Part shown: positions 12,589-39,914 of the stretch, piece after piece
Numbering within the stretch: the stretch's first letter is position 1
Layout of the letters: every line of letters begins with the position of its first letter
Assembly (NCBI RefSeq): GCF_904067545.1
Contig: NZ_LR881183.1
Location: 1,926,277-1,990,276, forward strand
From: Thermococcus camini
Lineage (GTDB): Archaea; Methanobacteriota_B; Thermococci; Thermococcales; Thermococcaceae
Direction of reading: 5' to 3'
Length of the DNA stretch: 64,000 nt
The notes under the pieces: generated by a model
Databases searched by the model: none
Seen by the model: only the letters and a program-made list of their open reading frames with translations
What the model was told of the DNA's origin: nothing
Made by a program: the position numbers and the translations under genes

Positions 12589-12624
12589 TTCCTTTTCCTT
12601 AATTTTGGAATTTTGGTGGAGCCG

Positions 12625-13290
12625 ATGGAGTTTGACCTCGAGAAGCTCATAAAGCCCAGACCGCTCCTCATTCTGGCCGAGTTATTTCTTCTCCTGGCGG
12701 TTCTGGCTTCCAGATTCTACAACGTCTCGATAGCCTTCCTCGGAGCCTCGACGGTCATCTACTATGTAGGCATGACCGAGCTCGTGGGGGAAAGGCTCGG
12801 AAGGTGGGCGGTGAAGCGCTTCACCCTGGCGTATCTCCTGAGGGCCTTTTCCTGGGTTCTCATGCTCGCATCGGCAGTCTACACCTACTCAGCCGTGATA
12901 GATAACATCTTCCCATTTGGCCCAAGGGAGTTCGCGATAACGTCGGTTGTGGCGCTCGTGGGAGCTGGGATAAACTACCTCGCGGTAGGGATAAGGAACA
13001 GCGTTCTATGGAAGATTGAGGGGCTGAGAATGAGCCTCTGGATGTCGAGGCTGAACTCGATCGTTCTGTTCCTCATGGTGGCGATCCCGCTCCTGCCAGC
13101 GCTCGCCAACGCTGGAGGGATGACCTGGCCCTTGGCGGTTCTAGCGGCTCCCATAATTGGTTCCTTCACTGTTCTTGCGATACTAGGCAAGCTGTTTTAC
13201 CTCAGGTTCCTCCTAACCTTCGAGGAAACAGAAACGTCCAGTCAGGGTTTTAAGCGGGAGGGCGGACTCCCACGGTGGGAGGGAAATTGA
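12625..13290 (+). CDS. Uncharacterised multi-pass membrane protein
   Basis: A 221-aa protein with about six hydrophobic helices (residues ~12-50, 68-95, 105-125, 147-170, 172-195). There are no obvious catalytic motifs. ATG 12625 is 5 nt after GGTGGAG. It follows enolase by 36 bp across a T-rich stretch and ends directly before the truncated radical-SAM copy. Family not recognised. Confidence 0.6.
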   Translation: MEFDLEKLIKPRPLLILAELFLLLAVLASRFYNVSIAFLGASTVIYYVGMTELVGERLGRWAVKRFTLAYLLRAFSWVLMLASAVYTYSAVIDNIFPFGPREFAITSVVALVGAGINYLAVGIRNSVLWKIEGLRMSLWMSRLNSIVLFLMVAIPLLPALANAGGMTWPLAVLAAPIIGSFTVLAILGKLFYLRFLLTFEETETSSQGFKREGGLPRWEGN

Positions 13291-13509
13291 ATGGTAGAAC
13301 GAAAAAAGCTCAAAATCTACATCCCGGGCATCAAATTCCCCTCGCAGGACCGGGGGGTTTCACCCCGCACGTCCTTGCCAACCCCCTCCCCCCGAACGTG
13401 GGGCTTCGCCCCACATAAGCCGGGAAACTACGTTTCCCAGACCCTTCCTCCTCTTTTAAATACCGGAGGGGGCAAAGCCCCCTACAACCCCCTTTCTGAG
13501 GTGAGTTAA
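13291..13509 (+). pseudogene. Truncated duplicate of the radical-SAM gene start, interrupted by a hairpin cluster
   Basis: The first 17-18 codons (MVERKKLKIYIPGIKFPS) copy the start of the next gene (MKKLKIYIPGVKFPS). After that the frame enters four inverted repeats and ends at TAA 13507-13509, in phase with and directly before ATG 13510. Nearly all differences between the two copies are at third codon positions, as if both had once been under protein-level selection. It is unlikely to encode a functional product. Confidence 0.55.
13352..13482 (+). repeat. Cluster of four perfect short hairpins with 3-nt loops
   Basis: Four stems in a row: GGGGT-TTC-ACCCC (13354-13366), GTGGGGC-TTC-GCCCCAC (13398-13414), GGGAAAC-TAC-GTTTCCC (13422-13438) and GGGGGC-AAA-GCCCCC (13468-13482). 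All have 3-nt loops, and GC-rich stems dominate. A TATA-like CTTTTAAATACC (13453-13464) lies between the last two and could drive the radical-SAM gene. Confidence 0.6.
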
Positions 13510-14337
13510 ATGAAAAAGCTCAAAATTTACATTCCGGGCGTTAAGTTTCCCTCTATCTCGCTCACGGGCAACTACTGCGCGCTGAACTGCGCCCACTGCG
13601 GAAGGCACTACCTCGAGGGTATGAGAACACCCACCAGAAAGAATCTGGTTGACTATTGCCTCAGTCTGGAGAGGGAGGGCTACACCGGCTGTCTCCTCAG
13701 CGGCGGAATGGATTCGAGGCTCAAGGTGCCCCTGGATAGGTACGCTGACGAACTGGGGGAGATAAAGCGAAGAACGAGCCTCAAGCTCAACGCCCACGTC
13801 GGGTTCATAGACGAGAGCGATCTGGAGTGGGTCAAATACGTGGATGTCGTTTCTCTCGACTTCGTGGGCGATGACGACGTGATAAAGAGGGTCTACAAAA
13901 TAGACAGAACCGTGAAGGACTACCTCAGAATCCTCGACCTGCTCACGGAAGCCGGGGTAAAAGTGGCCCCCCATATAACCATAGGCCTTGACTTCGGCAG
14001 AGTCGGCTGGGAGTTCAATGCCATAGACATGCTCGTCGAGTACCCCATAGACGTCCTCGTTTTAGATGTTCTCATCCCGACAAAGGGGACGGAGATGGAA
14101 AACGTTCCGAAGCCGAGCGTTGAGGAGAGCCTGAAGGTTGTGAAATACGCCAGGGAGAAGTTTGGTGGTGAGCTGAGCATAGGCTGTATGAGGCCCCTGG
14201 GACGGTGGAGGCTGGAGTTCGACAGGGGGGCGGTTTTGGCCGGCATCGACAGGCTGACAAACCCTCCCAGAAAAGTCATCGAATGGGCAAAGAGCGTGAG
14301 GGAGGTGGAGATAATCTACGAGTGCTGTGTGATGTAG
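13510..14337 (+). CDS. lipS1: Radical SAM protein, probable lipoyl synthase subunit LipS1
   Basis: A 275-aa radical-SAM enzyme. GNYCALNCAHC (CX3CX2C) near residue 22 binds the [4Fe-4S] cluster; a glycine-rich SAM-binding segment (CLLSGGMDSR) follows; the C-terminus ends in ECCVM, a possible extra cluster ligand set. It resembles biotin/lipoyl synthase-like archaeal proteins. In T. kodakarensis lipoyl synthase is made of two radical-SAM proteins (LipS1/LipS2), and I recall LipS1 (TK2109) lying a few genes after enolase, as here. The name rests on that synteny and on the motif. GAGGTGAG precedes the ATG. Confidence 0.6.
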   Translation: MKKLKIYIPGVKFPSISLTGNYCALNCAHCGRHYLEGMRTPTRKNLVDYCLSLEREGYTGCLLSGGMDSRLKVPLDRYADELGEIKRRTSLKLNAHVGFIDESDLEWVKYVDVVSLDFVGDDDVIKRVYKIDRTVKDYLRILDLLTEAGVKVAPHITIGLDFGRVGWEFNAIDMLVEYPIDVLVLDVLIPTKGTEMENVPKPSVEESLKVVKYAREKFGGELSIGCMRPLGRWRLEFDRGAVLAGIDRLTNPPRKVIEWAKSVREVEIIYECCVM

Positions 14338-38553: not shown

Positions 38554-38629
38554 AGCCCCGTGGTGTAGCGGCCAAGCATGCGGGACTTTGGATCCCGCGA
38601 CCCGGGTTCGAATCCCGGCGGGGCTACCA
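38554..38629 (+). tRNA. tRNA-Gln (anticodon TTG)
   Basis: The acceptor stem AGCCCCG pairs with CGGGGCT, followed by ACCA with the CCA encoded. The anticodon arm CGGGA-CTTTGGA-TCCCG shows TTG (reads CAA). The T arm is CCGGG-TTCGAAT-CCCGG. There is no intron. A TATA box (TTTATAAG) is at 38521-38528, about 26 nt before the gene. Confidence 0.97.
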
Positions 38630-39221
38630 TAGAAACTTTGCCTGCGCAAAGTTTCATCAAAGTTTGTAGCTCCTCTTGAAAGGCTGATTCTAGGTGATTT
38701 TTTCTTTGAGTGGCTGTTTTGGAAGTGAGAACTTTCCTAGTTGTTTCCTAATTGCGGGTTTAACTTTAAAATCGACGCCCATTGGGCGTCAGGAGAGAAT
38801 AAACCCCATTTCAGCAGGCTTTTTCAAAATGTTCTCGCCTGAAAATGAACATTTGGCGTGTAAAATCGGCTTGTATGGACGTTCTTTATGAGGAGCTACA
38901 TGCCTTTGGTGAAGCTCTTTTCAAAAGCTTCCTTCGCAAGCGCTGGCGGAATGTTTTGACTATTCTCTTGCTTTTGGTGTTGTTGCATGCCTTTTGCGAT
39001 GCTAATTTTTGGTAGGGTTTGCGCTTTAATTGTCAATGTTATTGGTTGTGTTTCTTGTTTTTGGCGCCAGAAGGGCACTGGCTTGGAGTGAAACGCCAGC
39101 CAAATTGTCCAACGTCAGTATAAAACCCTTTAAGAACACCTTGTATAAGGCATGCTAATTTCCACACTCCCAATTTGAACAGTTGGAATATTTTGGTCAA
39201 GCTTTGCGCAAGCAAAGCTTG
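38630..39221. other. AT-rich non-coding region with bounding hairpins
   Basis: About 590 bp without a convincing gene. It opens with AAACTTTGC-CTGC-GCAAAGTTT (38633-38654), right after the tRNA, and closes with CAAGCTTTGC-GCAA-GCAAAGCTTG (39198-39221), touching the stop of the next gene. Both stems share the CTTTGC/GCAAAG core. Inside are GACGCCC-ATT-GGGCGTC (38774-38790) and a far inverted pair TGTAGCTCCT/AGGAGCTACA (38665-38674, 38891-38900). Position beside a tRNA suggests a decayed inserted element or a structured RNA; neither is proven. Confidence 0.5.
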
Positions 39222-39914
39222 CTAAAACGCGAACTCCTCCACGCTGAACTCTTCCATGACCCTCTCGAAGTCGTGCTCGGGCGCGTAGGTGAAGCCGCAG
39301 GAAGAGCACTTTAGGACACCGTTCTCTTCATGGAGCGGGGCAAAGCAGACAGGGCAGCGGTACTCCTCGCGGGAAAGCCTGTCGTAAACCTCGTCCTTCA
39401 TCACGAGAAGGTTCAGCTCGACCTCCCAGTCCTCGTGGAGCATGCCCCAGTAGGGGGTCTCGACCGGGTAGAAGTCCTCAAGGATGAGCGCGTTTATCCC
39501 AATCCCCCTGACACCGGGCGGGAGCTTGCCGGTCGGCTCTATGCTCACCACGTACTGGTCGTAGAACTCTATGTGCTCAGCCCTGACTGTTAAGCCGCGG
39601 GAGAGCCTTGAGCGAAGGGGAATCAGCTGGAGGAAAAGGTTTTCCCTCTCAACGTCCCAGCTCGCGCTTACTGAAACGCTCCCCTTCATGAAGAACTGGG
39701 TTATGTACCCATCATCGCGCTCCTCGCCAGCTAAAGAAAAGCCCAGCTTGCCCATTGCCCGCCCAAGGAAGTTCGGCCTTGGAAGCCGCTGATAGTTCAC
39801 CAGATACTCACCTATCCACCCCGCTAACGGCATAGAATAGCCTATGAACGCCTGCCTCTGAACCCGCAGGTAGGCCACGCTGGGGAGCAATTTGAACCCT
39901 GGGTTCATCTCCAT
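39222..39914 (-). CDS. Uncharacterised protein with C-terminal zinc ribbon
   Basis: A 230-aa protein, probably translated without leader: a TATA box (ATATATATGA region, minus strand ~39936-39945) puts transcription start at ATG 39914 and there is no Shine-Dalgarno. The bulk is a beta-rich domain of unknown fold. The C-terminus has CPVC…CSSC (residues ~190-210), a zinc ribbon. Substrate or partner unknown. Confidence 0.65.
   Translation of the reverse strand: MEMNPGFKLLPSVAYLRVQRQAFIGYSMPLAGWIGEYLVNYQRLPRPNFLGRAMGKLGFSLAGEERDDGYITQFFMKGSVSVSASWDVERENLFLQLIPLRSRLSRGLTVRAEHIEFYDQYVVSIEPTGKLPPGVRGIGINALILEDFYPVETPYWGMLHEDWEVELNLLVMKDEVYDRLSREEYRCPVCFAPLHEENGVLKCSSCGFTYAPEHDFERVMEEFSVEEFAF

Follow-up and report, generated by a model that had tools for sequence, protein, structure and literature searches.

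The lipS1 gene of the Thermococcus genome analysed here begins twice, and a 148-bp block of four hairpins, which we call E, separates the two starts. We consider it fairly probable, though well short of certain, that E is a gene-specific, protein-less palindromic cassette that spreads by homologous recombination and is tolerated by virtue of the new start it supplies and the upstream reading frame it keeps open. The DNA analysed (the window) is a stretch of 64,000 nucleotides, positions 1926277-1990276 of a genome (G000) that forms a single contig of 2.02 Mb. In window coordinates, the features of the locus are:

12613..13290, + strand: upstream ORF of 225 aa; its TGA stop overlaps the copy-1 ATG
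13291..13509, + strand: ORF1, 72 codons, a vestigial lipS1 start MVERKKLKIYIPGIKFPS read through the cassette
13303..13343, + strand: copy 1 of the lipS1 start, the former native start
13345..13492, + strand: cassette core E, 148 bp, CAGGACCGGGGGG...TACAACCCCC
13354..13366, + strand: hairpin H1, GGGGT-TTC-ACCCC, 5 bp stem, lengthened by an outer GGAC/GTCC pairing
13398..13414, + strand: hairpin H2, GTGGGGC-TTC-GCCCCAC, 7 bp stem
13422..13438, + strand: hairpin H3, GGGAAAC-TAC-GTTTCCC, 7 bp stem
13454..13462, + strand: TATA-like box TTTTAAATA
13468..13482, + strand: hairpin H4, GGGGGC-AAA-GCCCCC, 6 bp stem (7 bp including 13467/13483)
13493..13509, + strand: exchangeable 5' leader of 'type A', TTTCTGAGGTGAGTTAA, with the RBS GAGGTGAG at 13498-13505
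13513..13553, + strand: copy 2 of the lipS1 start, functional
13510..14337, + strand: lipS1, lipoyl synthase subunit, intact (NF053742 LipS1)

The original prediction, that 18 codons occur twice in the same frame 219 bp apart, was right about the duplication and the frame and wrong about its extent: the copies share 14 codons (KKLKIYIPGxKFPS; 41 nt, 85% identical) at an offset of 210 bp, and 219 bp is the distance from ATG to ATG (13291, 13510), copy 1 having three extra codons. Both ATGs lie in one frame, with a TAA (13507-13509) between them that in the window directly adjoins the ATG of lipS1. As predicted, the differences fall almost only at wobble positions, five of the six being of this kind and the sixth a first-position change (I/V). 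The four perfect stems with 3-nt loops expected between the copies are also present, and none of 5,000 dinucleotide shuffles of the block reproduced them (3,579 had no such stem at all). The cluster is the sole one in the 64-kb window, and the search for further clusters that had been proposed returned three in 1.26 Mb of G000, including that of E. The region as a whole shows no unusual RNA folding (z = -1.6). Among the 465 candidate starts in the window lipS1 alone has an upstream copy, and it has the only convincing one among 6,763 candidate starts in the 1.26 Mb (62% of G000) covered by the scan, where the other matches were weak or belonged to a CRISPR array (L301 12009-12907, repeat GTTTCAATTCTCCTGGAGTCTTATTGCAAC). 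The gene had also been described as broken, which it is not: the downstream LipS1 is of intact length (275 aa) and matches the curated lipoyl synthase model NF053742 with 345 bits (cut-off 230; expect value E = 2.6e-103). The upstream ORF (12613..13290) has no Pfam or NCBIfam match.

We surveyed 94 genomes of the family, one per species and including some MAGs; 90 carry lipS1, and its 5' region was read in nearly all of them. Full-length E is present in 26 Thermococcus genomes, always directly 5' of lipS1. Eight alleles carry a partial E consisting of the left part and copy 1 (G022, G073, G002, G028, G061, G033, G080 and a second G077 allele), some of these partial copies coming from incomplete MAGs, and ten genomes, listed by inspection, retain only a right tail resembling CCCCCTACAACCCCC as a scar (G004, G035, G006, G069, G062, G067, G066, G063, G085, G075). 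A long form, with about 420 bp between the two starts, occurs in G022 and G073, and its middle resembles other hairpin arrays of the same genomes. E was absent from the 5' regions surveyed in Pyrococcus-like and other genera of the family.

Related genomes offer both empty and filled sites, which support the earlier suggestion of an inserted palindromic element, and the same block recurs in dozens of genomes; the further hairpin copies and the duplicated start, whose absence from relatives was to count against the prediction, were both found. G029 has a single start and no E, and in the same context G008, G010 and G020 show the native promoter, copy 1, E, a new leader and copy 2. The left joint, AAATTCCCCTCG followed by CAGGACC, is invariant in nearly all copies of E. 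Upstream of copy 1, many genomes (for example G013, G031 and G072) carry the tail of an earlier E joined to the remnant of an older start, and the same scar occurs without E in close relatives (G069 for G031; G066 for G011 and G084). Copies 1 and 2 are usually preceded by leaders of different types, each of which recurs in other species. These scars and leader types are, in our reading, the probable traces of cassettes that arrived and decayed several times over. Two lipS1 alleles occur in one MAG, G077: the first has a full E (L085/L145, C42) and the second an E lacking 69 nt (L099, C85); the deletion is consistent with loss between the arms of H2 and H4, and the two alleles are perhaps a polymorphism within the population, although mixed strains are possible.

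The two starts have fared differently. Over 25 genomes, copy 1 has accumulated 14 amino-acid changes, the majority radical (G to R/S, P to L/S, F to S), against eight in copy 2, all among I, V and L. Judged by comparison among genomes, copy 1 is clearly the former native start, now decaying at the amino-acid level, and copy 2 is the start of the intact enzyme. The suggestion of two once-functional copies therefore holds if the copies are taken as an old start and its replacement, not as two genes.

Copies of E are on average 90% identical, as against 47% at the 4-fold sites of lipS1. Host divergence was gauged from the 4-fold sites of the DNA polymerase D large subunit. By this marker G003 and G072 are 57% identical, and yet their copies of E are 99.3% identical, whereas E is only 94.6% identical in G017 and G026, the closest hosts in the set (82%). 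In the pair G003/G072 near-identity extends over E (0.99) and the leader (0.95), and identity is lower in the flanks (copy 1, 0.87; copy 2, 0.82). Third-position diversity in copy 1 drops towards E (.69,.53,.33,.28,.21,.08,.00), and that of copy 2 is flat. This gradient indicates that the last 12-15 nt or so of lipS1 travel with E and that crossovers fall inside copy 1; a crossover within the duplicated start is expected from homologous recombination, and a gradient would not result from fresh cutting at the edge. These comparisons demonstrate, as far as alignments can, that E moves horizontally between species, and they make crossovers inside the duplicated start on the left side well supported. 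Divergence of E is correlated with that of the hosts (Spearman 0.48), so that part of its history is vertical; E is too short for a strong tree. Mapping of donor tracts along lipS1 was weakly informative, because the 5' end encodes a conserved radical-SAM motif that is similar in all pairs. PMC7137780 describes T. kodakarensis as naturally competent, and DNA uptake would be a plausible route of transfer.

Spread of this kind could also be selfish. E would then be a gene-specific, protein-less 'homing' DNA whose hairpins trigger strand invasion or DNA breaks at lipS1; the duplicated start would steer homologous repair into cassette-free alleles, and the new start and the stop-free, in-frame upstream ORF would keep E harmless. 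We regard this as possible but doubtful.

The hairpins themselves are conserved. The stems vary about four times less than the remainder with its spacers (.037 against.138), and the first 50 nt of E hardly vary; stems more conserved than loops may therefore indicate a direct function of E, and they may matter either as DNA, in recombination, or as RNA. Such conservation is what one would expect if selection maintained E as a structured 5' element, with a TATA box of its own, that serves lipS1 as regulatory leader or as promoter and is inherited mostly vertically and lost where it is now patchily absent; the TATA-like box and RBS that precede copy 2 fit this explanation, and so does the divergence of E, which tracks that of the hosts. 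We nevertheless think it unlikely. The earlier idea of a structured leader acting as RNA found no support, since covariation in the stems of E is absent (one change on both sides, and 166 of 500 shuffles reach as high) and no Rfam family matches E above the cut-off; a riboswitch-like leader would be recognised by compensatory changes and a described family, and E offers neither. E is moreover absent or reduced to a scar in many healthy species of the very clades that bear it, and it is nearly identical in hosts whose synonymous sites are saturated. The TATA box noted within E does exist, with a transcript start about 23 bp 3' of it (the spacing rule of PMC4247193) predicted near 13484-13487 and H4 sitting between box and start, but it is degenerate in several genomes, and the native promoter before copy 1 has been kept in genomes that bear E. 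Promoter and RBS before copy 1 are nearly the same in the E-less G029 and in the E-bearing G010, G020, G083 and G022, and transcription probably still begins upstream of copy 1, at least in the latter four. The text of PMC4247193 gave no published transcript start for the T. kodakarensis homologue.

A covariance model of E retrieved weaker relatives with the order H1-H2-H3-TTAA-H4, typically a few per genome and up to eight. Many of those that we read lie directly after tRNA genes, others after sR36-type C/D-box RNA, and in one case the relative separates an hsp20-like gene from the gene that follows. This dispersed four-hairpin family probably gave rise to E as a lipS1-specific branch. The dispersed module is about 120-160 bp long, has a conserved left end, CAACGAAAGACAAGGGGGCTCCGCCCCCTTATCTCTCTGTACTCTCAAACCCCC, and in many Thermococcus genomes begins immediately downstream of genes for tRNAs and small RNAs. 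It directly follows tRNA genes at L159, L161, L165, L168, L169, L171, L175, L176 and L178, C/D-box-like RNA at L162, L163, L170 and L172, and sR36 at L146 1852-1911. A conserved E-like module between the hsp20-like gene and the next gene, directly before the leader of the latter, is found in several species (L148, L149 and L151-L154), and in degenerate form in G000 (L035). The window itself holds about 590 bp of non-coding DNA (38630-39224) between tRNA-Gln (38554-38629) and the next gene, bounded by the hairpins GAAACTTTGC..GCAAAGTTTC and CAAGCTTTGC..GCAAAGCTTG and enclosing a further GACGCCC..GGGCGTC hairpin; related arrays are found at numerous sites in the genome.

Modules at tRNA 3' ends call to mind integrative elements, and E could be a non-autonomous mobile element, mobilised by a transposase or site-specific recombinase that targets the start of lipS1 and uses the 41-nt repeat as att core. 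The direct repeats flank E like attL and attR, the target gene is rebuilt as it is by integrative elements, the left edge is invariant, and H1, with its outer stem and small internal loops, is reminiscent of hairpins recognised by transposases. The diversity gradient, however, has lipS1 bases at the left edge travelling with E, so that the edge would not be cut. No full-length E away from lipS1 turned up in the genomes searched, no larger autonomous version was found, viral contigs, plasmids and phages yielded none, and no att-type duplication of tRNA ends accompanies the related modules. We consider such an element improbable, more so than a regulatory leader.

The preferred reading, a cassette spread by homologous recombination, has to account for what becomes of the old start. 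At the 33 testable cassette-bearing loci, whose counts are not independent since the copies are related, the copy-1 ATG is always kept (33/33) and is preceded by an RBS pattern at 28. The copy-1 frame runs open through E to within 60 nt of lipS1 at all 33, both long forms included (the other frames: 10 and 8), and the stop lies at most 12 nt before the lipS1 ATG, or beyond it, at 31, abutting that ATG or overlapping it as ATGA at 13. In the long forms ORF1 is open for 142 and 124 codons, as were 14 and 57 of 3,000 shuffles, and the other two frames contain 8/10 and 5/6 stops. Stop avoidance is suggestive, weakly so in short E (one stop observed, 3.5 expected) and at P = 0.05 in the long pair, the copies again being related and not independent. 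The small upstream frame of the old start is probably still translated, to judge from these patterns, and ORF1 is likely to give rise to mis-annotation of small genes and to wrongly called lipS1 starts.

That ATG and frame are kept at every locus could mean that ORF1 encodes a functional small protein which begins like LipS1 by chance. This we find very improbable: the peptide itself is not conserved, because differences between the two long forms are spread evenly over the three codon positions (28/28/25) and short E varies least at the third; the LipS1-like part has suffered radical changes, and frameshifted versions of ORF1 are tolerated. Selection on the ORF1 peptide is rejected on the codon positions. 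Finally, a hairpin insertion that destroyed the first of two tandem lipS1 copies would explain two starts with synonymous differences, but we reject such a paralogue remnant as contradicted by the comparative data and give it next to no credence, as none of the surveyed genomes carries a second complete lipS1 next to the first, the codon at which copy 1 breaks off into E is the same throughout, and empty sites have one start.

According to the recombination model, a four-hairpin cassette about 150 bp long (about 420 bp in its ancestral form or in occasional cases) would have inserted after about codon 15 of lipS1. Copy 2 arrives with the cassette and its leader and becomes the start of the enzyme, leaving copy 1 as the host's former start; the left-hand crossover falls within the duplicated start and the right-hand one in copy 2 or in the conserved 5' region of lipS1, positions that are well supported, and DNA may pass between species by, for example, natural transformation. 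Old starts and cassettes would decay by deletions between hairpin arms, and scars would receive new cassettes by recombination. Loss of translation causes polarity in archaea, probably via FttA, as discussed with reference to work in Thermococcus, and archaeal translational coupling works up to about 30-40 nt (PMC12548453). Ribosomes that start from the native promoter and RBS would keep transcription going along the open ORF1, and those ending there may couple to, or re-initiate on, lipS1. E would then be tolerated because it supplies start and leader and because the upstream frame is open as far as lipS1, which would avoid problems of polarity and coupling.

We found no paper describing the lipS1 cassette. 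In E, a protein-less insertion has entered the same gene repeatedly throughout an archaeal genus and left that gene undamaged, which makes the locus a natural experiment in two respects: how hyperthermophiles recombine between species, and whether polarity and coupling in archaea constrain upstream frames whose peptide is irrelevant.

Several known systems share features with E. Self-splicing introns and inteins differ, since copy 2 is a repeat of copy 1 equipped with a start and RBS of its own, and E matches no catalytic RNA family. Like MITEs and REP-like palindromes, E is short, protein-less, hairpin-rich and patchily distributed, with related dispersed modules in the same genomes; it lacks the terminal inverted repeats and the few-bp target-site duplication that, together with dispersed sites, define MITEs, it is full-length at one gene, and its 41-nt flanking homology moves along with it. 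Integrative elements that rebuild the end of a tRNA or protein gene at their att sites likewise have direct repeats on both sides, and in E, too, the gene end is duplicated on both sides and the gene is restored by the element's copy. Unlike them, E measures 150-420 bp, sits at the 5' end of a coding gene and has no capacity to encode a recombinase, and its left edge is probably not re-cut, the diversity gradient arguing against an edge cut by a site-specific enzyme. ORF1 resembles archaeal coupled upstream ORFs in having an ATG, an RBS and a stop that lies within coupling range (30-40 nt; PMC12548453) of the downstream ATG, adjoining or overlapping it, but it would be a by-product of insertion with a peptide that is not conserved. 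Another parallel in form is with the palindromic elements of Rickettsia (RPEs), which, like E, are palindromes of about 100-150 bp inside a protein gene with an open frame running through (PMC10969869). RPEs, however, occur in many unrelated genes and stay in the mature protein, whereas E is confined to one gene, its frame stops before lipS1, and a new start follows that leaves the enzyme unchanged.
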